From a virus: 64,000 bases of DNA. The notes under the pieces were generated by a model, which saw nothing but the letters and a program-made list of their open reading frames with translations, had not been told where the DNA came from and ran no database searches. The stretch lies in the IMG/VR virus record IMGVR_UViG_3300029448_007456, positions 1 to 64,000 of that record; one strand, written 5' to 3'. Positions 36,913-64,000 of the stretch are shown here, piece by piece. A program made the translations under genes and the position numbers. How positions within the stretch are numbered: the stretch's first letter is position 1; every line of letters begins with the position of its first letter.

Positions 36913-37920
36913 CTAGTTTAGAGTTGCATTGACGGCATCAATGCCATCTTGGTCTAGCCATTTAATCCATACATCAGGATATGCTTTGAGGAACGATTCC
37001 ACAGATTCTTCAGCAGTTTCTTGCTGTTCATCCATTTTTACGATCAAACTGTTGAACAAGTTGATGTCAATGGATCTTGTGCCTAGATACTGCATGACAT
37101 CGCCATTTTGTGACATGTCACTTGATACCATTGTGTACAGAGTTGGCACACTGAAATCTGTAATTTTAGGTGAATCACAATCTTCCTTTTGGATACAATT
37201 GACCCAATGATCTGTTCCTGCAAATCCTTTGCCTGTTGGGATAGGTTGTAGATCGTACTTGCTAACCATGCCTGCTGGTTCCCAATAGAATCCAAACCAG
37301 TGATCGTCACTGTTGCCTGCCTTGCCAATACTACCGTCTAGGCCAACACCTGAACCTGGATCAACTATTTCCCAACCTTTTTCTTCTGCTCCATAGGCTT
37401 CTAAGATTTTTACTGTTGTGGTTGCACAACCCCACCCCACTGGACAGACATAAACTTTGCCGCCAAATATTTGAGGATTGTCTAACACATCTTCAACAGT
37501 TTTAAGTTCTGGATATGCTTCAAGTGTCTTAGGAAGCACATACCAATTTTCGCTAGCTCCACCTGAGATTGGCTCTTCGTTGGCAATAACTCCTGTGCCT
37601 CTTGCCAACGCATCGTCAACAATGCCTTGCACAGTTGATGCCCACAGTTCGCTGGCAACATCTGGTTCGCTTTTTTCTGCAAGGCTGGTGGCCAGTCCTA
37701 CAGTTCCGCCTTGAATCATTTGAATATTACAACCATACACTGTTTCTAGTATATACTTGTCCAAGTGGCCTAAGAATGCCGCAGATGACCATGTCATTTC
37801 TGCAACAGTGATATCGCCACAAGTTGTGTCAGCAATACTTGTCTTAGATTGCAACATTAATGCACCTGAGAACAATAATGCCACCAACATTGCTAATGTT
37901 ACTCCTGTTTTAGTCTTCAT
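36913..37920 (-). CDS. Glycine betaine/proline-type ABC substrate-binding protein (OpuAC/ProX-like)
   Basis: 335 residues with a signal peptide (MLVALLFSGALMLQS...IADT). Mature start TTCGDITVAEMTWSSAAFLG, then GGTVGLATSLAEKSEPDVASELW and WKGFAG-like segments fit the OpuAC periplasmic-binding fold, with Trp residues for quaternary amine binding (ENWYVLP, DHWFGFYWEP). No ABC permease or ATPase is seen, so it would work with host transporters. It is the last gene of the oxygenase operon. Such binding proteins are abundant in oligotrophic marine alphaproteobacteria. Confidence 0.8.
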   Translation of the reverse strand: MKTKTGVTLAMLVALLFSGALMLQSKTSIADTTCGDITVAEMTWSSAAFLGHLDKYILETVYGCNIQMIQGGTVGLATSLAEKSEPDVASELWASTVQGIVDDALARGTGVIANEEPISGGASENWYVLPKTLEAYPELKTVEDVLDNPQIFGGKVYVCPVGWGCATTTVKILEAYGAEEKGWEIVDPGSGVGLDGSIGKAGNSDDHWFGFYWEPAGMVSKYDLQPIPTGKGFAGTDHWVNCIQKEDCDSPKITDFSVPTLYTMVSSDMSQNGDVMQYLGTRSIDINLFNSLIVKMDEQQETAEESVESFLKAYPDVWIKWLDQDGIDAVNATLN

Positions 37921-44470: not shown

Positions 44471-45259
44471 TTAGAATGATAATTCAACACCCATTGCTGG
44501 AGTTGTTTCTTCTGAGTCTAAATTGTAGTTTGCTTCAACATAGTAACCTAGATCTTTCCAAGTTCCTTTGTATCCTGCACCCACGTTCTTTGACCAGTCT
44601 GCTTCATTACCATCAACATAAGCAGATAAACCGCCTATTGATAGTATTGATTCATATGCAACTTCATCAGTAAGTGATGCGTCCTGTGTTACCACAGTTG
44701 AAACATTTGCTGACTCGTTGAGTGCAAACGCAACTGAACCTGCATAGATGTTGTCATCTGATGCAATTGTGTGATCCACAGATGCACCTACAGTGAACTT
44801 GCTTACTGTTGTGCTGTATTTTGCCTGAACAGTATCAAAGTCTGAGATGTCTGTGTCTGTGTCAGAAAATTTACCTCTTACAGATAAACCACTGATGTTT
44901 AACACAATGCTCTCGCCTGCATCACTTGGGTTTGCGATTGTATTCGCTCCCACCGTTTCAAGACCTCCACCAATAAAGATGTCGCCCTGATCGCCGTATG
45001 ATACAGATGTCGTCGCAGTTATATTTGCACCTATTTGATATTCGTCTAGTACAAATTGATCCGAAGCATTTGTCTTAACGTCGATTGAACCAAAAGCAAC
45101 ACCTGAGTCGCCTGCGATTCCTAACTTGATTGATTCAGTTGAGATGTAGTCATTACTTGCGTTTTCTGTAATGTCAAGTTCCACTTTACCGGTAATTGTG
45201 GCAGCTTGTGTTACACCTGCAAAACCTAAAGCAATCAATAATGCTGTTAGTTTTTTCAT
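44471..45259 (-). CDS. Porin-like outer-membrane beta-barrel protein
   Basis: 262 residues with a signal peptide (MKKLTALLIALGFAGVTQA) and alternating beta strands throughout, ending in ...MGVELSF with a C-terminal Phe, the BAM-recognition signature of outer-membrane barrels. Acidic loops (DTDTDISDFDT, SDDNIYAG) would be exposed. At this size it may form a 12-16-strand barrel. A phage-encoded porin could change host permeability or mask receptors. Isolated gene between its own promoter and terminator. Confidence 0.78.
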   Translation of the reverse strand: MKKLTALLIALGFAGVTQAATITGKVELDITENASNDYISTESIKLGIAGDSGVAFGSIDVKTNASDQFVLDEYQIGANITATTSVSYGDQGDIFIGGGLETVGANTIANPSDAGESIVLNISGLSVRGKFSDTDTDISDFDTVQAKYSTTVSKFTVGASVDHTIASDDNIYAGSVAFALNESANVSTVVTQDASLTDEVAYESILSIGGLSAYVDGNEADWSKNVGAGYKGTWKDLGYYVEANYNLDSEETTPAMGVELSF

Positions 45260-45391: not shown

Positions 45392-46408
45392 TTATTTAGA
45401 AGCCTTGGCTTTTAAATCCATTGTGGTTAAGTTTTCTACAATTGCTTTGACTTCTGCCGCCTTGTCTTCTGCAAGTGGCACCAGTCCGAGTGAACCAAGA
45501 AAACCATCAATAGATGTGGCTTCATCTGATATGAACAATTTAGCATATTCCTCAATGCCAGGAACGATGCCAACATGATCTTTTTTGATGTAGTAAAACA
45601 GAGGTCTTGCTATTGGATATTCATATGATTGAATTGTTTCCAATGAAGGCTTGACTCCGTTCACTGTAGATCCTTTGATGGCATCTTTATTTTCCAACAG
45701 ATATGAATAACCAAAGAATCCAAATCTATCAGGACTGTCTTTAAGTTTGTTCACAATGAGTGTGTCGTTCTCACCCATCTCTGTGGTTGCACCATCTTCT
45801 CTGAAGTGTTTGCACCCGTTTTTTTCTGTTTGTAGGTCTTTGGCTCCAGCTTCTTTACAGCCTTTTTTCATCACTAATGATTCCCAAGCATCTCTGGTGC
45901 CCGATGATGGTGGTGCCACCAATATATCGATTTTCATGTTTGGCAGTGATGCATCAATTTCTGACCACTTTGTGTATGGATTAGGCACTAGTTTGCCGTC
46001 CACAGGCACTTCTTTGGCCATTGCTAACCACAACTGTTTAGTGGTCACTTTCATGTCAGGACCTTCCAGTGAGTTGGCAAACACAATGCCGTCGTTGCCT
46101 ACAATAACTTCAACAACACTGTCAACGCCATTGTCTAAACACAATTTGGCTTCTTTGGACTTCATAGCCCTTGAAGCATTTGTGATGTCTGGATGTTCTA
46201 GGCCTACACCGGCACAGAACATTTTCATACCACCGCCTGATCCAGTGGATGCCACAGTGGGTGCTTTTGAACCAGCTTCGCTCAGTCTTTCTGCCACAAC
46301 AGTAGAGTATGGATACACTGTAGATGAACCTACAATGTTAATGATATCTCTTGCCTGTAGTGTGGAAGAAAGGAGAACTGAAGCTAGTAGGATTACTAAC
46401 TTGTTCAT
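45392..46408 (-). CDS. pstS: Periplasmic phosphate-binding protein PstS
   Basis: 338 residues from MNKLVILLASVLLSSTLQA, a signal peptide. The mature part contains NIVGSSTVYPYSTVVAERL, STGSGGGMKMFCAGVG and APPSSGTRDAWESLV, the phosphate-binding loops of PstS/SphX proteins, and EDGATTEMGENDT. The longer frame from 46441 lacks a ribosome site, whereas the chosen ATG has AAAGGAAA. It captures phosphate for the host Pst transporter, a known phage strategy in phosphate-poor ocean. The promoter has a Pho-box-like element. Confidence 0.88.
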   Translation of the reverse strand: MNKLVILLASVLLSSTLQARDIINIVGSSTVYPYSTVVAERLSEAGSKAPTVASTGSGGGMKMFCAGVGLEHPDITNASRAMKSKEAKLCLDNGVDSVVEVIVGNDGIVFANSLEGPDMKVTTKQLWLAMAKEVPVDGKLVPNPYTKWSEIDASLPNMKIDILVAPPSSGTRDAWESLVMKKGCKEAGAKDLQTEKNGCKHFREDGATTEMGENDTLIVNKLKDSPDRFGFFGYSYLLENKDAIKGSTVNGVKPSLETIQSYEYPIARPLFYYIKKDHVGIVPGIEEYAKLFISDEATSIDGFLGSLGLVPLAEDKAAEVKAIVENLTTMDLKAKASK

Positions 46409-46455
46409 GATAAATTTCCTTTCATTGTATGGAGTATCCATAGATATATATTAAA

Positions 46456-46787: not shown

Positions 46788-47397
46788 GCAAATATTTATT
46801 GAAATTTTGCGTGGTATCCCTTGAAAAATTTGCATGTCTATGCCACTGTTTTGGACATTGATATTCTGCAGGTGCTATCCAAACAAAATTGACATGTGGA
46901 TAACTTTCAAACAGTTTGTCCAATTGATGATGCCAATACTTAGGATCGACTGCTTTGTTATCATATCCATTTGTATTGGCATACACATTAGTGTAGTTGT
47001 TTTGTTGTGTCATATCGAAACCGATCAGATAGCAAAGATTGGTTGTCTGCATGTTCCATTCATAGTTTTTAAATGCACAAGCAATGTTGATTGCATGTGG
47101 ACCTGAATTCCAATGCCAAGGGTTGTCTTCTCTTTCAGTTCCATTGTATGGCAGTTCTGGATAAGCACTTACCATGAACTTAGTATTCCAGTTTGGTCTA
47201 GTGTATAACTGTCCTGGGTAGTCAGATGATAATACCTCAGCAACCATTCGCTGATCAGCGGCTGACACTATGTCTGGATGAAAGTCTCTTACGATTGCGT
47301 TACAGCCGACAGTGACTCCTTGCTTTTTACAAGAGTCAAGATCTATCGGCTGTCTGCTCTCACCATTGCCTATTACAAAGGTGATGCGTTTTTTCAT
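46777..47397 (-). CDS. Rossmann-like protein of unknown function (206 aa)
   Basis: MKKRITFVIGNGESRQPIDL then KQGVTVGCNAIVRDFHPDIVS is a Gly-rich strand-loop-helix followed by an acidic patch (SAADQRMVAEVL), reminiscent of MptE-like/motility-accessory or sialyltransferase folds. The C-terminus has many Asn/His/Trp (NPWHWNSGPHAINIACAF). Family unassigned. A glycosyltransferase-like role is possible. It follows btuB by a one-base overlap. Confidence 0.55.
   Translation of the reverse strand: MKKRITFVIGNGESRQPIDLDSCKKQGVTVGCNAIVRDFHPDIVSAADQRMVAEVLSSDYPGQLYTRPNWNTKFMVSAYPELPYNGTEREDNPWHWNSGPHAINIACAFKNYEWNMQTTNLCYLIGFDMTQQNNYTNVYANTNGYDNKAVDPKYWHHQLDKLFESYPHVNFVWIAPAEYQCPKQWHRHANFSRDTTQNFNKYLHDT
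46793..46800 (-). promoter_or_regulatory. T4-type late promoter motif AATAAATA
   Basis: Minus-strand AATAAATA, 5 nt upstream of the ATG at 46787, inside the 3' end of the upstream gene. Confidence 0.5.
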
Positions 47398-49175
47398 TAA
47401 AATAGATATTTTAAACTGACAGCAAATTCTCTGCCAGGCTGTGTATATCCCATTGGTCTTTCATATGCCAAATCAGTCACGTTGTTGATTGTGGCAGTTA
47501 CTTCAGTGGCGTCACTCACTTTATACAAAAGTCCGATGTCTGTGTAGTGTTGTTCACTATTGGTCACAGTTGACCAATTGGTTGGGTGAATATCTTTGTG
47601 TTCACCATAGTAGTTCCAATCATACCAAACTTTCAACTTGTCTGTGACATCATGACCTAAACCAACCACAGCAGAATACTGCGGGCGTCTAGTTAATTGC
47701 ACATCATCTGAATCCTGTGCATGCACGGACGTTACACTAAAGTTGATTGTTGTGTCATCATACTGTTGTTTGTTCTGCAACTCCCAACCTTCCATAGAAC
47801 TGGTTCCAGTTGTGTTGTTATAAGTTGAGTTTGAATAAGATATCATGTTGTCAATTTTTGTGGAAAACACAACAAACTTGCTGTCCATACTGACATATTC
47901 GTTTTTGACTTTTGACACCAATCCAATTTCGTTGTTCACTGAACGTTCTTCTTCAAGACTAGCATTGCCTGAATATCCGAAGTTGTCAGCACCATACATT
48001 TCATACAGTGTAGGCGCACGGAATCCTGTGTTGTGTCCTGCAATGGCTGTCATGTGGTCATTTAATTTGTAACCAACACCAAGTCGATACGTGTTAACAT
48101 CATCATGTAAACTGTTAGTATCATGTCTAACTCCTGTGTTCAACAACACATTACCTAGTTTGTAATCTGCATTTAGAAAATATGCATTTGCTTGTGCTGA
48201 TTTGTCCACAGATGAATTGTAAGATCCTTTGTTGTCAAATTTTGCTGTGTAGGCTGATCCTTCTGTTCCAACGGTGTATTCTACTGGCCCAAATGTATTG
48301 GTATGGGATAGTTTGATATGATTAGTTGAACTGTCGTAAGTGTCTATCTCTGTGCCATTCACATATTCACGGTCATGCACGTTTCTATCAATGACAAAAT
48401 TTACAACATCTGATTCGTATCTTGCTTGTAAAAAGTAAAAATCTGAATCTGATGTGTAGTCAGTGTCGTCAGTGCCACCTGCATCAAGGTCAGCACTTGC
48501 ATCTCTATACACCACTGTGGTGCCAATTTTTGCATTTTCAGTGTAGTGCGTTGAATCAAAGTTCAATGTCTGATACTGATATCCGTCATTGTCTCCGCCT
48601 TCTACAATAGAATATCCATCGGATGATTCTTGATACATTTTAATAGAGTATATTCCTGATGGTTGTGCAGTAAAATAGTTTACTCCAAGGCCTGCGGTGT
48701 TGTTAGATCCAGTCTTAAGTTCTACACTGTCTTCTAATGTGCCTCCAGTGTTGATGTTAATAGCACCACCAATTGCACCAGGTCCCCAAAGTGTGCTCTG
48801 CGATCCTTTGTATAAATCAATTGAACCTGCATAAGTCACTGAATCTACACCTGCATCAAACAATCCGTTAGTTGTAGAATGGTCAGTTACTGGTGATCCG
48901 TTGATCATAAACAGTGTGTGGTTGGAATTAGTTCCTCTTGTAAACACAGAGGTTTGTTGTCCACGTGGTCCAGATCTTATTGCTTGAAATGAAGTATTGC
49001 TGTCCAGCACTTCACCTATGGTCACAGTGTTCTTATAGGACTGTGTTTTGACTGTGTCCACATTTGTTGTTAATAAACTTTTGTCACTTGGCACAATATA
49101 CAGTGTGACATCAAGAGCACTGGCAGTTGCTATTGATCCAAAAACAAAAGTCAAGATTATCGTTAGTATTTTCAT
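47397..49175 (-). CDS. btuB: TonB-dependent cobalamin receptor, BtuB-like
   Basis: 592 residues from MKILTIILTFVFGSIATASA, a signal peptide. The plug domain shows TIGEVLDSNTSFQAIRSGPR, SVFTRGTNSNHTLFMINGSP (compare BtuB RGTNxxHxLVLIDG) and STLWGPGAIGGAININTGG. A 22-strand-type barrel follows and ends PGREFAVSLKYLF. BtuB-like features plus the cobalamin riboswitch upstream argue for B12 uptake. A clear TonB box (ETVVVT type) is not evident after the signal peptide. The nearest candidate is LYIVPS. AAGGAG precedes the ATG. Confidence 0.85.
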   Translation of the reverse strand: MKILTIILTFVFGSIATASALDVTLYIVPSDKSLLTTNVDTVKTQSYKNTVTIGEVLDSNTSFQAIRSGPRGQQTSVFTRGTNSNHTLFMINGSPVTDHSTTNGLFDAGVDSVTYAGSIDLYKGSQSTLWGPGAIGGAININTGGTLEDSVELKTGSNNTAGLGVNYFTAQPSGIYSIKMYQESSDGYSIVEGGDNDGYQYQTLNFDSTHYTENAKIGTTVVYRDASADLDAGGTDDTDYTSDSDFYFLQARYESDVVNFVIDRNVHDREYVNGTEIDTYDSSTNHIKLSHTNTFGPVEYTVGTEGSAYTAKFDNKGSYNSSVDKSAQANAYFLNADYKLGNVLLNTGVRHDTNSLHDDVNTYRLGVGYKLNDHMTAIAGHNTGFRAPTLYEMYGADNFGYSGNASLEEERSVNNEIGLVSKVKNEYVSMDSKFVVFSTKIDNMISYSNSTYNNTTGTSSMEGWELQNKQQYDDTTINFSVTSVHAQDSDDVQLTRRPQYSAVVGLGHDVTDKLKVWYDWNYYGEHKDIHPTNWSTVTNSEQHYTDIGLLYKVSDATEVTATINNVTDLAYERPMGYTQPGREFAVSLKYLF

Positions 49176-49199
49176 AAAGTCTCCTTGCTTTGTTCTACC

Positions 49200-49276
49200 C
49201 CTAGGTGGCATTCGGACTATAACCGTATCAAGTAATGTGAACGAATTTCACGTCGCTTTCCCACTATGCTTTTAGG
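49200..49276 (-). promoter_or_regulatory. Cobalamin riboswitch, short env8/AdoCbl-II-like (Cbl-IIa) class
   Basis: On the minus strand: CCTAAAAGC opens P1, then AGTGGGAAAG, the core GACGTGAAATTCG hairpin, ATTACTTGATACGG with loop TTATAGT and CCGAATGCCACCTAGG closing P1 (CCTA with TAGG). As I recall it, this is nearly the same as the crystallised env8 hydroxocobalamin riboswitch from marine metagenome. It sits 24 nt before the btuB-like ATG, with the AAGGAG ribosome site immediately after P1, consistent with translational control by the L5-L13 kissing loop. Confidence 0.9.
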
Positions 49277-57097: not shown

Positions 57098-58465
57098 CTA
57101 ATTGCCCTGGGTGGTAGAAAGAGTGCAACCTGCTTGTGTGCCACAGGTCATGTCAATGCTGTAATCTTGATCAGTGGATCCTTGCTGTGACAGATCAAAA
57201 TCAGTGGAATAGCCATCTAGATCAACACGAGCCGCATGGTTACCAGTGCCAGTTTGACTGATATCCACATCATGTGCATAACTGCCTGTACCAAGTGTTA
57301 GATCTAAATAGTGTTCACCTGTGCCTGACTGATTGATATCAACAGTGTTGTTGCCATTGTCTATGTCCACAAACAAAAACTTATCCCCATCGTTTAACTG
57401 TTGCATGGTGATCACATTAGAAGAAGAATCTAAATCCACACTCATGAAGTGCTCTGAAGATGTTGTACCATCATTGCGTTGTTGTAAAGTCAATGTGTTG
57501 GTTGATCCATCAATATCAATCAGCATTCTGTGATCTCCTACATCAGTGGCATAGTCACCTTGGGATAGATTCAGTGTGTTGGTATTGCCTGTGATGTCTA
57601 GTCCTATGCCGTTCCTACCACTGCTTCCAGATGTAGTCACATTGCCTTGATCAATATTGAGTGTGTTGTCGTTGCCTGTGATTTGTGAATCACTGGACCA
57701 ATCACTGCCAACAACAAAATTATCATTGCCTGCTTGTTCAATATTAATTGTGTTGTTGTTGCCTTGCACATTCATTTTAATCCCGCTGTCTGATGTGCCT
57801 TTGGCTGTGTTCACTGCTGTGGTTTGTGAAGATGTGATTGTAACATTAACTGTGTTTTGGTCAGTGGTTGCAAAACCAGAGTTAGGCATATCTAACCAAC
57901 CACTTGTAGAGTTTAAACTTAAATTAGATAAACTATAATGTATATCCATATTAGCAGAACCACCCCATTCATACCAGTTAATTTGTATTGGGTACCATTG
58001 ACCACCAACACCAGAAAATGAACCACTAGAGTTCCAATATGTTGGTCCTTGTTGAGCCCAGTCAGATATTACTTTAGTATTATTGATGTTTACAATAAGT
58101 CCATCATCATTACGACCAGCAAAATAAACTGTTGATGTTTGACCTGTGGTTCCTGGATGTTGCCAATAACCGGTGATAACTACCATTCTCTGATTAGCAC
58201 CATAATTATTATTATGAAGAACTATATTTCCACTATTCCAGTTGTAATTTAAACTGTCAGTAGTACCAGTTCCTTGTGATAGACCTACATAACTTGGACT
58301 AGAATTATTACAGGTAGAGAGATATGTATAGTTGTTAAAACAAGGTGACTCTACATAAGGTGCATAATGACTAATTGCAAATACTTCATAATTTAAACTT
58401 CCTGCATATGCACTTGAACAAAGCAAAAACAAGATGCTACTGATTTTGAAGAATGCTAATTTCAT
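57098..58465 (-). CDS. PA14-like plus curlin-repeat secreted protein
   Basis: 455 residues with a signal peptide (ISSILFLLCSSAYAG). Residues ~60-190 resemble a PA14/GLEYA carbohydrate-binding domain: VYFAGRNDDGLIVNINNTK, ISDWAQQGPTYWNSSG and WYPIQINWYEWGGSANMDIH. From ~230 on there are curlin-like repeats of about 20 residues (NNNTINIEQAGNDN, NTNTLNLSQGD, SNVITMQQLNDGD, HDVDISQTGTGNH). The fusion joins a glycan-binding head to an amyloid-type body. It is last in the curli-like module. A start overlap with the fecR-like gene couples them. Confidence 0.78.
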   Translation of the reverse strand: MKLAFFKISSILFLLCSSAYAGSLNYEVFAISHYAPYVESPCFNNYTYLSTCNNSSPSYVGLSQGTGTTDSLNYNWNSGNIVLHNNNYGANQRMVVITGYWQHPGTTGQTSTVYFAGRNDDGLIVNINNTKVISDWAQQGPTYWNSSGSFSGVGGQWYPIQINWYEWGGSANMDIHYSLSNLSLNSTSGWLDMPNSGFATTDQNTVNVTITSSQTTAVNTAKGTSDSGIKMNVQGNNNTINIEQAGNDNFVVGSDWSSDSQITGNDNTLNIDQGNVTTSGSSGRNGIGLDITGNTNTLNLSQGDYATDVGDHRMLIDIDGSTNTLTLQQRNDGTTSSEHFMSVDLDSSSNVITMQQLNDGDKFLFVDIDNGNNTVDINQSGTGEHYLDLTLGTGSYAHDVDISQTGTGNHAARVDLDGYSTDFDLSQQGSTDQDYSIDMTCGTQAGCTLSTTQGN

Positions 58466-59534
58466 TTTCCTGTCCGTTAATGGTGTAATCTATTATTTCG
58501 TAATCTTGTTGTTGCACATTTAATATATAAGTGTTTTCTTTGTCCAGCCTTAATTCAATAAAGTTGCCTGCCGCATCTTCTCTGCTCCACACAAAATGTG
58601 GATCTTCGTCTAGCAGTATAATTCCTGTTGTTGGATCTTTTCCAAACCGCTGTCCTTCGACTTTTTTGTCAAATTCACTTCTCATCTGTTTGGCCAGTTC
58701 TTCGTTGATTTGTTTTAGAATATCCACAAGAAAGTTTTGTTCTAAAAAATCAATATCCAATCCCGTTGCCCAATTTTCAATTTCTTCTTCTAAAGCATCG
58801 ACATTAAGATCATCAAATTCCAAAAAGTCAATGTCAAGTGCATTGGCCACAGCATTATAGGATGAATTGTCCTGTTGTTCTTGGATTTCTTTTGGCTTGC
58901 TAATAATTAACAAATTGTTGATCATATCTTCTTCTAAACTAAGAATCACTGGCCGCATGGGCACACTTGCAACAGTATCAACAACTGTAGCCTGGAATGC
59001 CTGGTTCATTATGACTTGACCAGCATCTGATTCAACTGATATTTCCCCCACATAACATTTTCCATCTGTGTTGCAACTTGGCAATAATATAATTGTGCTA
59101 CTTCCTATTTCGTCCACTGTCATGGCAAAATCAGTGCCTCTAACTCCTATGGTTGCTGTTGGAGTTTGTATCAATACATTCTGTTTGGAGTTTTTGGCAA
59201 TTTGTCCTGATGCATAACGCACAGTGCCAAGACCTGCTTTAAGCGACAACTTGCCTGTGCCACTGGCAGGATCATACACAAATTCATCAATAACAAGTTT
59301 TGAATGTTGGGTGATATCTACTCTGGTTTCATCAACAAATTCAATGGCAGTCTTGCCTTTGCCAGTTCGGACTGTGTCGTATGAAAACACATCAAGGTCA
59401 ATTTCAGTGACTGCTTCTTCGCCATCAGTACGCTCCACAGCACCAGTGCCTTCGTGCAGTATGACATTCCCTATACTGGCCCATGAGTTTACTGTCAGCA
59501 CAAAACTGCACAGCAAATAAAAAAGAAAGTTCAT
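58437..59534 (-). CDS. FecR-domain secreted protein
   Basis: 365 residues with a signal peptide (MNFLFYLLCSFVLTVNSWA). The FecR domain is seen in DTVRTGKGKTAIEFVDETRVD, LSLKAGLGTVRYASGQIAKN and IQTPTATIGVRGTDFAM. The C-terminal half is acidic and helical, then beta. No TM helix after the signal, so it is periplasmic or surface-exposed rather than an anti-sigma factor. FecR-domain proteins next to CHASE2 cyclases are a recurrent bacterial pairing, and such a cyclase is encoded divergently 3 kb away. Confidence 0.82.
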   Translation of the reverse strand: MNFLFYLLCSFVLTVNSWASIGNVILHEGTGAVERTDGEEAVTEIDLDVFSYDTVRTGKGKTAIEFVDETRVDITQHSKLVIDEFVYDPASGTGKLSLKAGLGTVRYASGQIAKNSKQNVLIQTPTATIGVRGTDFAMTVDEIGSSTIILLPSCNTDGKCYVGEISVESDAGQVIMNQAFQATVVDTVASVPMRPVILSLEEDMINNLLIISKPKEIQEQQDNSSYNAVANALDIDFLEFDDLNVDALEEEIENWATGLDIDFLEQNFLVDILKQINEELAKQMRSEFDKKVEGQRFGKDPTTGIILLDEDPHFVWSREDAAGNFIELRLDKENTYILNVQQQDYEIIDYTINGQENEISILQNQ

Positions 59535-60217
59535 TAGTCTGTTTGACTAATGTCTATATCCGCGTTATCACCTGATGTTGTTAGTGTAATCATTTGATCG
59601 TTGATGCCACTCTGTACAATGTCCACATCTGCGATGCCACCTGTATGTGTGTGTATTAAAGTGTGTCCATTTACATCACCGTTGCCATCAATGTCAACCA
59701 ACCAGTTGTTAGTGTCACCGTCAACTGTGATTGTTAATATAGCACTGGTACCGTCGATGGTTGCCGCAATAACGTTTGAGTCATCATCACCTGCAGATGT
59801 AATTGTTGCAGTTGTGTTTGATGCATCTGATGTTTCGCCAATATCTAAATCAATATCATTGCTGTTTCCTACCATGGTCACATTAGCTGTTACAGTGCCA
59901 CAAGAACTGTTATTTCCTGTGCTGTCACACATGATATCAATATCATTGCTGTTTCCTGTAACATTAAATGTACCAGTATACGAAGCACCATTGATATCAA
60001 ACTTTAATATGTTAGAGTTACCAACTTGATCAATATCAATTGTTGTGGTAGCTCCAGTGACAGTTGATGCAGTAGTCGAGTTACCCACTTGGTTGTTTTG
60101 ACCATCTTGTGTGATGTCCAAATCCAAAGTAGCACCTGATTGTGTCACATAGATATCATTGGCGTTTGCAGATGTTACAAACAAAAACGATAGTATTAAT
60201 GTTATTAGTTTTGTCAT
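59534..60217 (-). CDS. Curlin-repeat protein (CsgA/CsgB-like)
   Basis: 227 residues with a signal peptide (LITLILSFLFVTSANA). The mature protein is Asp/Asn/Thr/Gly-rich with repeats such as IYVTQSGATLDLDITQDGQN, TIDIDQVGNSNILKFDI, NVTGNSNDIDIMCD and IVQSGINDQM, the alternating hydrophobic-polar QxGxxN pattern of curlin amyloid subunits. It would be secreted through CsgG and assemble on the cell or virion surface. Overlaps the fecR-like gene by one base. Confidence 0.78.
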   Translation of the reverse strand: MTKLITLILSFLFVTSANANDIYVTQSGATLDLDITQDGQNNQVGNSTTASTVTGATTTIDIDQVGNSNILKFDINGASYTGTFNVTGNSNDIDIMCDSTGNNSSCGTVTANVTMVGNSNDIDLDIGETSDASNTTATITSAGDDDSNVIAATIDGTSAILTITVDGDTNNWLVDIDGNGDVNGHTLIHTHTGGIADVDIVQSGINDQMITLTTSGDNADIDISQTD

Positions 60218-60232
60218 TTATTTGTGTATCCC

Positions 60233-61030
60233 CTAAAAATATTTAATTTTCCATAACCCTTCTTTATCACCCAGTTTTAATAATTCCAGCACACAATATT
60301 CAATTGCACTGCGTACCGCATAATTTACTGGTTCATTTGTAGCAACACCGGTCTCAACTTCAAATGCTTTTGTGCTCATGTCTAAAAACCTAAACACATC
60401 AGCCGACGTCTTATGGCTTGCAATTGTTTTTGTTGCTTCTGCTGTTAGTAAAACTTCTCCAGTTTGCACAGCAACTAATCTCATGCTGACTGTGACTTGA
60501 TCTATTCTGTATTCTTCTGACAGGCCGATGCCGAAATATCTAGCACCATCACCACCAGAAGCCACATTTGCATCATATCCAATGATGCCTCCTTCAACAA
60601 GTAGTCCTGCAAACACAAGCGGTTTTAAAACATTTCCTACTTCTTGACTTCCATCATACAGTTCTCTAGTTGATCTTATCAACTGTCTTTCTTTGACCAA
60701 ACTGTCTAAACCTTTTCGTTCAACCACTCTGAACCATGTGCCTTCGCCCACTGCCTTGAGTGCTGAAATCACCCAGACATCTGCACCTTGTGAAACTGCC
60801 ATAGACAGTTGACTAAACTTTGTGCTTGGCTTACGCTGTCCTGTAAGATCAGGAAACTTATATACAGCAATGGTTATCACTGGTTGTTCAACAAGTGGAG
60901 GCAATGATTGTAAAATTTGCATTGTGGGTGTGCCTTCGATGAAAGGATCATCACCACTTTTAACTGTGTTCTGTGTGGTAGCACAAGATGTCAATATCAA
61001 AAGCATGCCTATTATAATAAAATTTTTCAT
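60233..61030 (-). CDS. csgG: Curli secretion channel CsgG
   Basis: 265 residues with lipobox LTSC (Cys16). Matches to E. coli CsgG by eye: ITIAVYKFPDLTGQRKP (VYNIQDETGQFKP), WFRVVERKGLDSLVKERQLI (WFIPLERQGLQNLLNERKII), LLVEGGIIGYDANVASGG, GARYFGIGLSEEYRIDQVTV, VQTGEVLLTAEATKTI and VFRFLD, NEPV. This is a full-length outer-membrane nonameric pore. The constriction segment (KPSTKFSQLSMAV) lacks the Tyr51/Asn55/Phe56 residues of E. coli. Confidence 0.92.
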   Translation of the reverse strand: MKNFIIIGMLLILTSCATTQNTVKSGDDPFIEGTPTMQILQSLPPLVEQPVITIAVYKFPDLTGQRKPSTKFSQLSMAVSQGADVWVISALKAVGEGTWFRVVERKGLDSLVKERQLIRSTRELYDGSQEVGNVLKPLVFAGLLVEGGIIGYDANVASGGDGARYFGIGLSEEYRIDQVTVSMRLVAVQTGEVLLTAEATKTIASHKTSADVFRFLDMSTKAFEVETGVATNEPVNYAVRSAIEYCVLELLKLGDKEGLWKIKYF

Positions 61031-61031
61031 G

Positions 61032-61490
61032 TTAAAAATTAAAGTCTCCTAGTGGAACAGACATTGTGGTTACATTGTTGTTGGGGTCTGTAATTGTTAG
61101 TGTTATTATTTCGGTTGATGTGTCCTTGACCCAATAAATTGTTGATCCTTCAACGTTTGCTGTGCCTGAAGTCGGACATGTGCCTGTGCATGATGTTCCA
61201 AACATGTTGTCCACCAATTGTTTGGACAGGTTTGCATATATTCTTGATTCAACATTCTTAATAAATTTGTTTATGGTTGTGTTGTTTGCTAATCTTTCAG
61301 CCGCAGCTGCCGCAGATTTTCTTTCATCTTTGAGATCATTCTTTCTGCTATACTGCAATTGTTCAATTGATAACACATGAGAAGAATATCCCTGCTTGCT
61401 GAAAGAAGGATTTCCAAATTCATGATGCAACTGATCAGCATGTGCAGAAGTCATAATAATAGCCAGTGTAATAACCAAGGTTTTTAACAT
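61032..61490 (-). CDS. csgF: Curli assembly factor CsgF
   Basis: 152 residues from MLKTLVITLAIIMTSAHA, a signal peptide. ATG chosen because ATTAAATA lies 5 nt upstream; the longer frame to 61568 has no support. The mature start DQLHHEFGNPSFSKQGY resembles CsgF (TFQFRNPNFGG) whose N-terminus plugs CsgG. LSIEQLQYSRKNDLKDERK, FIKNVESRIYANLSKQLVDN and TLTITDPNNNVTTMSVP match the helix and C-terminal beta of CsgF. A Cys pair (GTSCTGTCPTSG) is unusual. Confidence 0.85.
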   Translation of the reverse strand: MLKTLVITLAIIMTSAHADQLHHEFGNPSFSKQGYSSHVLSIEQLQYSRKNDLKDERKSAAAAAERLANNTTINKFIKNVESRIYANLSKQLVDNMFGTSCTGTCPTSGTANVEGSTIYWVKDTSTEIITLTITDPNNNVTTMSVPLGDFNF

Positions 61491-61503: not shown

Positions 61504-61553
61504 GGTTTTTGAACCCAAATGATGTGCAGACACTTATGAACAGTTGTGCAAAA

Positions 61554-61561
61554 GTTAAATA
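61554..61561 (+). promoter_or_regulatory. Late-promoter-like motif GTTAAATA, plus strand
   Basis: GTTAAATA on the plus strand, 7 nt before the ATG at 61569; it decides that start. Confidence 0.45.
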
Positions 61562-61568
61562 CACACAT

Positions 61569-61847
61569 ATGGAGTTTTTAAAAATAGTAGGCGAAGTTGG
61601 ATTTCCCATAGCAGGAGCCATCGCCGCAGGATATTTTGTGTTTCTCACAATCAAGTTCATACTGGCAGGAGTTACTGGCGGTGTAAATGGACTTAAAAAT
61701 ATCATCACAGCACTAGACAATCGAGTGCAAACCATGAACAACGACTTAGTGCAGATTGATGCTAAAATGAGTCATGTGTTAGGAGTAAAACCAAACGTAG
61801 AAAGAATAGCTGCCAATGAAGGCAAGGAGGATGCAAGACGTGATTAA
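61569..61847 (+). CDS. Single-TM phage membrane protein (92 aa)
   Basis: MEFLKIVGEVGFPIAGAIAA then YFVFLTIKFILAGVTGG, a long hydrophobic stretch, followed by a coiled-coil tail (NRVQTMNNDLVQIDAKMSHV). Start chosen by the late motif 7 nt upstream. Paralogous in plan to the gene at 62174 (GFPIxAAxGxGYFVF). May be a holin-like or envelope protein. Confidence 0.62.
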   Translation: MEFLKIVGEVGFPIAGAIAAGYFVFLTIKFILAGVTGGVNGLKNIITALDNRVQTMNNDLVQIDAKMSHVLGVKPNVERIAANEGKEDARRD

Positions 61848-62037: not shown

Positions 62038-62177
62038 AAATAGTGCATGTAAAAGAAGAACAGTTATACTGTGATGGTGAAGATCACGATCATCCTAGAG
62101 TGTATTACAACCTAGCCAAAAAAGGTGAGGCCATCTGTGGATACTGTAATATAAAGTATGTGTTGGATAAAAAATGA
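62034..62177 (+). CDS. zf-CHCC zinc-finger micro-protein (47 aa)
   Basis: MKIVHVKEEQLYCDGEDHDH then PRVYYNLAKKGEAICGYCNI gives CxG...HPRVY...CxYC, the zf-CHCC signature with almost no other sequence. The family is common in alphaproteobacteria. Coupled at both ends (ATGA overlaps). Second zf-CHCC gene in this window. Confidence 0.72.
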   Translation: MKIVHVKEEQLYCDGEDHDHPRVYYNLAKKGEAICGYCNIKYVLDKK

Positions 62178-62449
62178 GTGGACCAATAGTAGAAGCAATC
62201 AATCAATATGGATTTCCAATCATTGCCGCAATGGGTCTTGGATACTTTGTGTTTTACATTTGGCAGTGGGTGACCACTGAGATAAAACCTGTGCTAGGTG
62301 CGGCCAACACCACATTAATTGCACTCATAGACAGAATTAGAATGTTGGACAATGATCTAATCAGACTCAACACCAAACTTAAAATGATCGAAGAACTGCA
62401 AAACAAATCCAACAAAGAGATTGCTGACAAAGTAAAAAATAAAAAGTGA
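62174..62449 (+). CDS. Single-TM phage membrane protein (91 aa), paralogue of 61569 gene
   Basis: MSGPIVEAINQYGFPIIAAM followed by GLGYFVFYIWQWVTTEI, one TM helix, and a coiled coil (RIRMLDNDLIRLNTKLKMIEE) ending in a Lys-rich tail. Same plan as the gene at 61569. Stop overlaps the GTG of the cyclase gene. Confidence 0.6.
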   Translation: MSGPIVEAINQYGFPIIAAMGLGYFVFYIWQWVTTEIKPVLGAANTTLIALIDRIRMLDNDLIRLNTKLKMIEELQNKSNKEIADKVKNKK

Positions 62450-64000
62450 CCAAACTTCTAACACATTGGCTAACTGTTTTGATAACCCTTGCTGTGTTAG
62501 TAGGGTTGAGATTTCAAGATGGTGGACTTACTGAAACTGCTAGACTAAAATCCTTTGACTATCTTCAGTCAACAGATGCTAAGGAGATGTCACAAGACAT
62601 TGTCATTGTTGAATTTGACGAAAAGGCAATAGAAGGCTTTGGACAATGGCCATGGCCAAGGGATTATCTTGCTGATGTGATCAATCATTTGCGGAGTCAA
62701 GGTGCTGGGTTAATTGTGATGCCCATACTGTTTTCAGAAGAAGACAGAGCAGGCATGGACGATGTGCTTGCACAAACACTGCAAGGCAATGGAGTCATCA
62801 TTGCACAAACAGGAACCACACAAACAAATAAAAATGCAGTGCCAAGAGGCATTGCCAAAATAGGTGATCCAATACCATATCTTTTTCAATGGCCAGGCAT
62901 GTTGGGTCCTATACCTAAATTAGGTCAATCAGCAGATGGTGTTGGTGTATTAAACATTGCTCCTGAAAGAGATGGAGTTGTAAGACGTATGCCACTCATC
63001 ATGACAGTGTCAGGAGAAACATATCCTGCATTAGCCATTGAAACAATTCGTGTGGCCACACAGGCACCATCCTATCAAGTCAAAGCAGGCCCAACAGGAG
63101 TGCAGGCAGTGAGGGTGCCAGGTTATAATGTTATCACAACTGATGCCAATGCTAGAATTTGGTTACGTTGGAACAAACAGTTTCCTTCTGTTAGTATCAT
63201 GGAAGCCACACAAGAGCATGTGCAAGGCAAAATTGTTGTGATTGGACTCACAGCAGAAGGCATTGGATCCACCATTGCCGCACCCACAGGCACAGAATAT
63301 GCCCACACACCAGTGGCTGTATCCTTGCAAACTATCATTAATGGTGACAACATTGTTAGATCCGATCTAGCAGACACATACGAACTTGCATATCTGTTTG
63401 TGATTGGACTGTTATTGATCATTGCCGCAAGATTCTTTCACTATGGTGTGGTGGCAGGACTTATTGTATTAATTGGTGTGGGCACAGTGTATGGTTCTGT
63501 TCACATATATTCAACAAGACTGTTGCTGTTTGATTTTTCATGGCCTGTAATCACAACTGTGTTAGTAGGACTTCATGCTGTGTTCAATCGTTTTGTTTCT
63601 GAATACATGCAGAAGCAAGCCATAAAAAAACAGTTTGGTGGTTATGCATCGCCCACAGTGGTTAAGATGCTACAGGAAAATCCAGCACTTATCAAAGAAG
63701 GTGTTAAAAAAGAAGTGTCAATATGTTTTTCAGATCTACGTGGTTTTACACCACTTGGTGAATCGTTCGGCGATGATGTGAAAGGTTTGACTCAAGTGAT
63801 GAATGGATACATGGACGCCATAACCAAACCAGTGCTTGATGCAGATGGCATGATTATCAAGTATATTGGAGATGCAAGTATGCACATCCACAACGCACCA
63901 ATTGATGATGCTGATCATCCACGCACTGCTGTGCAAACTGGTTTGAATATGTTGAAAGCAGTTGAACAATTTAACAACAAGATCACAGCAGAAGGTAGAC
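62446..64000 (+). CDS. CHASE2-domain class III adenylate/guanylate cyclase (3' end cut)
   Basis: GTG start overlapping the previous TGA; about 518 codons visible and still open at the window end. After an N-terminal TM-like segment (LLTHWLTVLITLAVLVGL) comes a CHASE2 sensor with IVIVEFDEKAIEGFGQWPWP and VMPILFSEEDR. Two to three TM helices follow near 330-400, then a class III cyclase: VSICFSDLRGFTPLGESF with the first metal Asp, and GMIIKYIGDASMHIHNAP with the adenine-contact Lys and second metal Asp. It predicts cAMP/cGMP signalling from a periplasmic sensor. Confidence 0.85.
   Translation, partial: MTKLLTHWLTVLITLAVLVGLRFQDGGLTETARLKSFDYLQSTDAKEMSQDIVIVEFDEKAIEGFGQWPWPRDYLADVINHLRSQGAGLIVMPILFSEEDRAGMDDVLAQTLQGNGVIIAQTGTTQTNKNAVPRGIAKIGDPIPYLFQWPGMLGPIPKLGQSADGVGVLNIAPERDGVVRRMPLIMTVSGETYPALAIETIRVATQAPSYQVKAGPTGVQAVRVPGYNVITTDANARIWLRWNKQFPSVSIMEATQEHVQGKIVVIGLTAEGIGSTIAAPTGTEYAHTPVAVSLQTIINGDNIVRSDLADTYELAYLFVIGLLLIIAARFFHYGVVAGLIVLIGVGTVYGSVHIYSTRLLLFDFSWPVITTVLVGLHAVFNRFVSEYMQKQAIKKQFGGYASPTVVKMLQENPALIKEGVKKEVSICFSDLRGFTPLGESFGDDVKGLTQVMNGYMDAITKPVLDADGMIIKYIGDASMHIHNAPIDDADHPRTAVQTGLNMLKAVEQFNNKITAEGR

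Follow-up and report, generated by a model that had tools for sequence, protein, structure and literature searches.

A curlin with an exchangeable head of predicted PA14 fold in a phage curli operon

Known curli modules and comparable systems

Pelagiphage curli operons that include a second curlin, a FecR protein and a cyclase were published between 2020 and 2022 (PMC7029224, PMC9004378, PMC9599517). Two of these reports, by Zaragoza-Solas et al. 2020 (PMC7029224) and on Melnitz (PMC9004378), gave csgA/csgB as missing or unidentified; in the third, which deals with HTVC023P-type podophages (PMC9599517), CsgA/B, a second copy of CsgA/B, FecR and the cyclase were identified. The main texts present the second gene only as a second CsgA/B copy and describe neither a head domain nor its exchange, and the term 'PA14' is absent from the main texts of all three. 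A literature search for PA14 together with curlin or CsgA retrieved no relevant paper. We know of no earlier curlin with a built-in lectin-type head, and the protein described here, P0001, would be the first in the literature searched.

P0001 is encoded by a stretch of 64,000 nucleotides (hereafter the window) that corresponds to bases 1–64000 of IMG/VR virus record IMGVR_UViG_3300029448_007456, which is 114,778 bases long. The window has the same genes in the same sequence as the pelagiphage T8SS module (CsgF, CsgG, curlin, FecR, second curlin, adenylate cyclase), but its cyclase is divergent instead of being located downstream. With bacterial CsgA/CsgB (exemplified by E. coli 8enq and the curlin-repeat protein 8c50), P0001 has in common the hyd-x-hyd-x-Q repeats, a predicted beta-solenoid and the csgG/csgF neighbourhood. 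It differs from them by longer and less regular repeats (about 23–29 residues), by an N-terminal folded domain of 180 residues and by a conserved C-terminal Cys pair.

The PA14 lectins of RTX adhesins (MpPA14, MhPA14) and the yeast Flo/Epa adhesins share with the head of P0001 the beta-sandwich, the Asp-Asp-Gly motif and a terminal place on an extended surface protein. However, the head is only about 18% identical to the bacterial PA14 lectins and carries a Glu instead of an Asp at the second-loop Ca ligand. Furthermore, it rides on a curlin solenoid that is presumably exported by CsgG, whereas PA14 adhesins use type I secretion or a GPI anchor.

Phage tail-fibre tips and other receptor-binding proteins combine a conserved shaft with swapped recognition domains, recombination taking place at the domain border. 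The headed curlin would work in the same way, with a conserved shaft and an exchanged recognition part. Unlike tail-fibre tips, it has a signal peptide, belongs to a curli operon and has a shaft made of curlin repeats, and the evidence presented here gives it no virion role.

The locus and its operon

The curli module is carried by a phage of aquatic bacteria, as the IMG/VR record encodes a T4-type clamp loader, PhoH, a DNA ligase, an endolysin and a virion structural protein. No Pfam match to Gp23 (T4 major capsid protein), T4 portal or Terminase_6 was found across the 114.8-kb record, which is therefore probably a fragment; Gp23 is present in records bearing related loci, including that of the cultured Pelagibacter phage HTVC008M. 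The possibility of a misassembled bacterial contig was rejected, since phage genes are found throughout the record and homologues of P0001 occur in cultured phages. A virion tail protein was likewise rejected as the identity of P0001 because of its signal peptide, its place in a curli operon and the lack of adjoining structural genes. P0001 has no match in PHROGs.

The open reading frame that an earlier note had reported at 57098–58465 is real and is encoded by the minus strand (58465→57098), the plus strand being stop-rich across this region. The features of the locus are as follows.

57098–58465, minus strand: PA14-headed curlin P0001 (455 aa), final gene of the curli operon, member of a 33-member family.
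58403–58465, minus strand: signal peptide, residues 1–21 (by eye; AlphaFold2 pLDDT below 50 at residues 1–20).
57866–58402, minus strand: predicted PA14-type head, residues 22–200, exchangeable cassette (AlphaFold2 and structure alignment, Pfam matches of relatives, DNA identity).
58100–58108, minus strand: DDG motif (Asp120-Asp121-Gly122), presumed Asp-cis-Asp calcium site, invariant in 33/33.
57791–57865, minus strand: linker, residues 201–225 (dip in AlphaFold2 pLDDT, below 50 at residues 210–215).
57101–57790, minus strand: curlin-repeat tail, residues 226–455, with a conserved Cys pair (C441, C447) at its end.
58437–59534, minus strand: FecR-domain protein (FecR E 2.3e-10), probably secreted, with a curlin-like C-terminus.
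59534–60217, minus strand: first curlin, 227 aa, CsgA/B-like (NCBIfam CsgB E 3.6e-5; synteny with HTVC008M AGE60350 'CsgB').
60233–61030, minus strand: CsgG outer-membrane secretion channel (CsgG E 1.1e-49).
61032–61490, minus strand: CsgF (CsgF E 1.4e-11), start probably Met at 61490, the open reading frame extending to 61568.
62446–64000, plus strand: divergent adenylate/guanylate cyclase, continuing to 64485 in the record.

The minus-strand genes thus follow each other in the order CsgF, CsgG, first curlin, FecR-domain protein and P0001, the open reading frames of the last two sharing 29 nt. With its divergent adenylate cyclase, the window contains the complete pelagiphage T8SS set (csgF-csgG-curlin-FecR-second curlin), and this order is conserved in the cultured phages HTVC008M and Melnitz. 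HTVC008M encodes a full-length homologue of P0001 (40% identity) that is annotated as 'hypothetical'. In both cultured phages, the cyclase gene comes immediately after the second curlin gene and all genes are co-directional; judged from gene order, the divergent cyclase of the window is a local rearrangement relative to them. CsgE is absent from the operon.

In the literature, the FecR protein of curli modules is labelled as an iron-dependent regulator. However, the protein has a signal-like start, and its C-terminus (58437–58523, minus strand, in the window) carries a curlin-like repeat of the form (I/L)N(I/V)xQ...GQDNEI(T/N)IxQ that is found in 60 of 64 distinct homologues. Because of these two features, the sequence suggests more simply a secreted protein that takes part in the fibre structure than an iron regulator.

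Several other genes of these loci deserve mention. Small proteins with a single likely transmembrane segment (YGFPI..GYFVFY..) are encoded between CsgF and the cyclase (61509–61847 and 62174–62449, both on the plus strand); a protein of the same type adjoins the cyclase in viral contig L193 (8186–8536, minus strand). All of them may be holin-like or act together with the module. In two related loci, a SoxY-SoxZ fusion is encoded within the curli operon, between FecR and the headed curlin (L089:5739–6482, E 2.4e-25 and 5e-16; L095:9683–10426, nearly identical by eye). Elsewhere in the window, examination by eye revealed an uptake-type cluster (36913–37920, 44471–45259, 45392–46441 and 47397–49211, all on the minus strand) that would encode a binding protein of glycine-betaine type, a porin, a PstS protein for phosphate binding and a TonB receptor resembling BtuB, an unusual combination in one phage.

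The head of P0001

P0001 begins with a signal-peptide-like sequence recognized by eye (MKLAFFKISSILFLLCSSAYA, with G as the next residue). The signal peptide claimed by the earlier note is thus supported, the AlphaFold2 model being of low confidence over the same residues. Alone, P0001 has no match to Pfam PA14 at E<=1 and, compared as a single sequence with PDB sequences, gives only weak PA14 matches (6qe7, E 0.03), so that a family profile was needed. Among its 33 aligned relatives, 29 match Pfam PA14 (best E 1.3e-14) and 14 also match GLEYA, and the family profile matches solved PA14 domains (6qe7, 2.6e-21; 6qdi, 1e-16; 6m8m, 1.2e-5). The AlphaFold2 model of P0001 (mean pLDDT 78, pTM 0.57) superimposes, by its head, on the PA14 lectin of Marinomonas primoryensis (MpPA14; 5j6y/6xa5) with a Z of 16.4 and 2.9 A over 159 residues, and on yeast Flo/Epa adhesins with Z of 12–14; the PA14 fold was also retrieved by Foldseek (E 5.9e-7). 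Residues 22–200 are therefore predicted to be a PA14-type beta-sandwich.

In PA14 lectins, a cis-bonded pair of consecutive Asp holds the Ca2+ that binds sugar diols, assisted by a second loop (PMC6650083, PMC8092209). D120, D121 and G122 of P0001 are invariant in all 33 aligned relatives. In the same alignment, a second loop, YE(W/N)GG, carries an invariant Glu166 and pairs, in the profile alignment, with the loop holding Asp181 of the Marinobacter lectin. The presence of Glu166 in the P0001 family where the Marinobacter lectin has an Asp was counted against a calcium/glycan reading. Taken together, the PA14 fold, the invariant DDG and the invariant Glu166 lead us to infer that the head binds Ca2+ and sugar. 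The earlier note had seen a DDG-containing PA14/GLEYA-like block in this part of the protein, and both the motif (residues 120–122) and the fold that it expected for the N-terminal half were recovered.

The curlin-repeat tail

Residues 226–455 contain 8 strict hyd-x-hyd-x-Q strands at the spacing given above, where shuffled sequences would be expected to contain 0.8; none of 2000 shuffles reached 8. One or two further degenerate strands accompany them, so that the earlier count of 'about ten' curlin repeats was roughly right. The Pfam Curlin_rpt score of P0001 alone (19.0 bits) is below the gathering score of 20.7, and the score over the P0001 frame is 21.8 bits. Matches of the family profile to the solved curlins 8c50 (7.3e-16) and 8enq (8e-5) indicate kinship with these proteins. 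AlphaFold2 gives a regular beta-solenoid (strands 232–453, pLDDT 70–93), as anticipated by the earlier note for the C-terminal half; the top solved-structure matches of the tail are other beta-solenoids (the SufB/SufD complex and MpAFP). C441 and C447, near the C-terminus, are kept in 32 of 33 sequences. The tail thus appears to be a curlin-repeat beta-solenoid, and by this kinship it would form amyloid fibres. P0001 is not a CsgA subunit in the sense of a short protein devoid of any extra folded domain, as residues 22–200 constitute a separate domain of predicted PA14 type. The amyloid with a lectin head that had been proposed is accordingly the most fitting interpretation and is partly supported: the PA14 fold of the head and the solenoid fold of the tail are both predicted, the tail is kin to solved curlins, and the sugar binding is inferred.

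Exchange of heads between related tails

The heads and tails of related proteins have different relationships. The head of P0001 is 94% and 93% identical to those of L026 and L023, respectively, but its tail shares only 40% identity with each of theirs. Conversely, the tail of P0001 shares 82% identity with the tail of L092, a protein with a ThuA-like head (27% identity, unrelated folds), and 80% with the tail of L012, a pair in which the PA14 heads are only 39% identical. In the same way, HTVC008M and L081 have tails that are 93% identical and unrelated heads (26%).

At the DNA level, identity between the window and L023 is mostly 55–65% at the FecR end, rises to 84–98% between about 58405 and 57866 and falls to about 46% in the tail. 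These borders coincide with the end of the signal peptide (about 58405) and the end of the PA14 domain (about 57866). The proteins encoded in the flanks are less similar than the head: CsgF, CsgG, the first curlin and FecR are 64–75% identical and the cyclase 49%. In AU tests, the tail grouping was rejected by the head data (p 6.7e-6), the head grouping by the tail data (p 5.5e-10) and a single clade of ThuA-headed proteins by the tail data (p 1.1e-76); these p-values are descriptive only, because the groupings were named after the identities were known, and the steps in DNA identity stand independently of them. The head is thus an exchangeable cassette, swaps being observed at the DNA and tree levels both between PA14 variants and between PA14 and ThuA-like heads. 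This is what the present data add to the published curli modules. It is also the most informative point that the earlier note had missed, along with the strand, the phage context and the surrounding curli operon.

Head types among related phages

Relatives were gathered from viral contigs using five queries (P0001, the family alignment, CsgG, the tail alone and one F5/8C-headed protein). The distinct proteins found include 37 with PA14 and 41 with ThuA-like heads, counts that are shaped by the search strategy. The slot between FecR and cyclase was surveyed in the 80 loci nearest to the window by CsgG and was readable in 46. It contains a PA14-headed curlin in 7, a long curlin bearing a head of another kind in 8, a headless curlin of roughly 250–350 residues in 8, a protein of less than 150 residues in 22 and nothing recognised in 1. 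Since many phages have only a headless protein of 117–127 aa in the second-curlin slot, the head is not essential.

Of the second head type, 4 of 10 proteins match Pfam ThuA, though weakly (best 4.8e-4). The AlphaFold2 model of a ThuA-headed relative is poor (mean pLDDT 59) and shows alternating beta/alpha elements, and the best Foldseek matches are flavodoxin/Rossmann folds with E of 0.03 or worse; its ThuA/Rossmann-like fold is therefore only a lead. Such a head may lack sugar binding. A third type, found in phages that share this operon order, is an F5/8-type-C (galactose-binding-like) domain (E 1.3e-9 and 1.4e-10), and is carried by 50-odd distinct proteins that fall in a single head cluster. 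In L193 and L229–L308, which have the same curli order, the second curlin carries F5/8-type-C, often with a further N-terminal domain; some of these records reach 280–383 kb and some contain Gp23.

Large phage proteins that carry PA14 without a curlin tail (L064–L068, 728–926 aa; PA14 confirmed by Pfam in L064 and L067) are possible head donors. A scan of genome contigs, using patterns of close relatives only, found no cellular PA14-curlin; its sole find was a protein of a Microbacteriaceae MAG with PA14 and a SUEL lectin and no curlin tail. A plasmid search found no PA14-curlin either; four alphaproteobacterial plasmid csgG regions were inspected and none was apparent in the gene tables of the three annotated ones.

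Possible roles of the headed curlin

Sequence comparisons and models make it reasonably likely that P0001 serves as an adhesive subunit in a curli fibre encoded by the phage, with a Ca2+-dependent glycan-binding head that would be shown on the infected cell and selected for recognition. The process could be viewed as follows. The curli operon would be expressed during infection. CsgG and CsgF, as known from their biology, would open a pore across the outer membrane of the host. The plain curlin, FecR-curlin protein and PA14-headed curlin would all be exported by this route. According to repeat homology and the model, the curlin solenoid of P0001 would then stack on the fibre, and the displayed PA14 head would, from its fold and motif, bind glycans via calcium held by Asp120-Asp121. 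Phages would exchange PA14, ThuA/Rossmann-like, F5/8-type-C or no head on related tails, as is expected of a recognition module. The fibre would therefore most likely fasten the infected cell to a particular glycan carried by other cells, exopolymer or particles. Exchange of heads at domain borders, together with the invariant calcium-site motif, argues for selection on recognition and hence for attachment as the most likely role. The weakest step is export: a folded head of 180 residues is too bulky for the CsgG constriction and would have to cross unfolded and fold outside. The absence of CsgE and the many phages whose slot holds only a short headless protein also speak against this reading, as does the lack of clumping in Melnitz-infected OM43 cultures (PMC9004378), although the second curlin of Melnitz has no head.

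Rather than other cells or particles, the exported headed curlin might bind the surface sugars of its own host and mask phage receptors, leading to superinfection exclusion. A shield role of phage curli has been proposed (PMC9599517), and a head of varying specificity would suit varying host lipopolysaccharides; the present data do not separate self from non-self glycans, and protruding fibres suit outward binding equally well. We regard such masking as rather improbable. The head could also have no ligand and serve only to cap or stabilise the end of the fibre, its exchange being neutral mosaicism of T4-like phage genomes, as the module sits in a hypervariable phage region (PMC7029224) and headless forms exist. 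This proposal is unlikely, given that the exchange borders match domain borders (about 58405 and 57866) while the flanks diverge and that the Ca-site residues are invariant across heads otherwise differing by 60%.

A more distant proposal is that P0001 stays in the periplasm, where its bulky head would plug or gate the CsgG pore in place of CsgE and time leakage or lysis. The phage modules lack CsgE, a lysis-timing role of CsgGF was suggested for Melnitz (PMC9004378), and, with the head placed before the tail, P0001 shows no evident N-terminal export signal of the CsgA type. However, a specific plug would not tolerate replacement of heads by unrelated folds or their loss, and the lectin-type calcium site is invariant; we consider this gating very doubtful.

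Returning to the adhesive subunit, a broader proposal can be made with some hesitation, its prospects falling a little short of even. Such phages may possess a second recognition system, located on the infected cell and not on the virion: an amyloid fibre whose tip bears interchangeable lectin-type heads evolving as cassettes and that would tether the cell to chosen glycans on neighbouring hosts, gels or particles. Phage curli are widespread in the ocean, and the functions proposed for them include pore, shield, sibling capture and lysis timing. A head exchanged as a cassette, one type of which combines a predicted glycan-binding fold and an invariant calcium-site motif, is a pointer to adhesion and recognition, and makes the function of phage curli accessible to assays on a domain of 180 residues.
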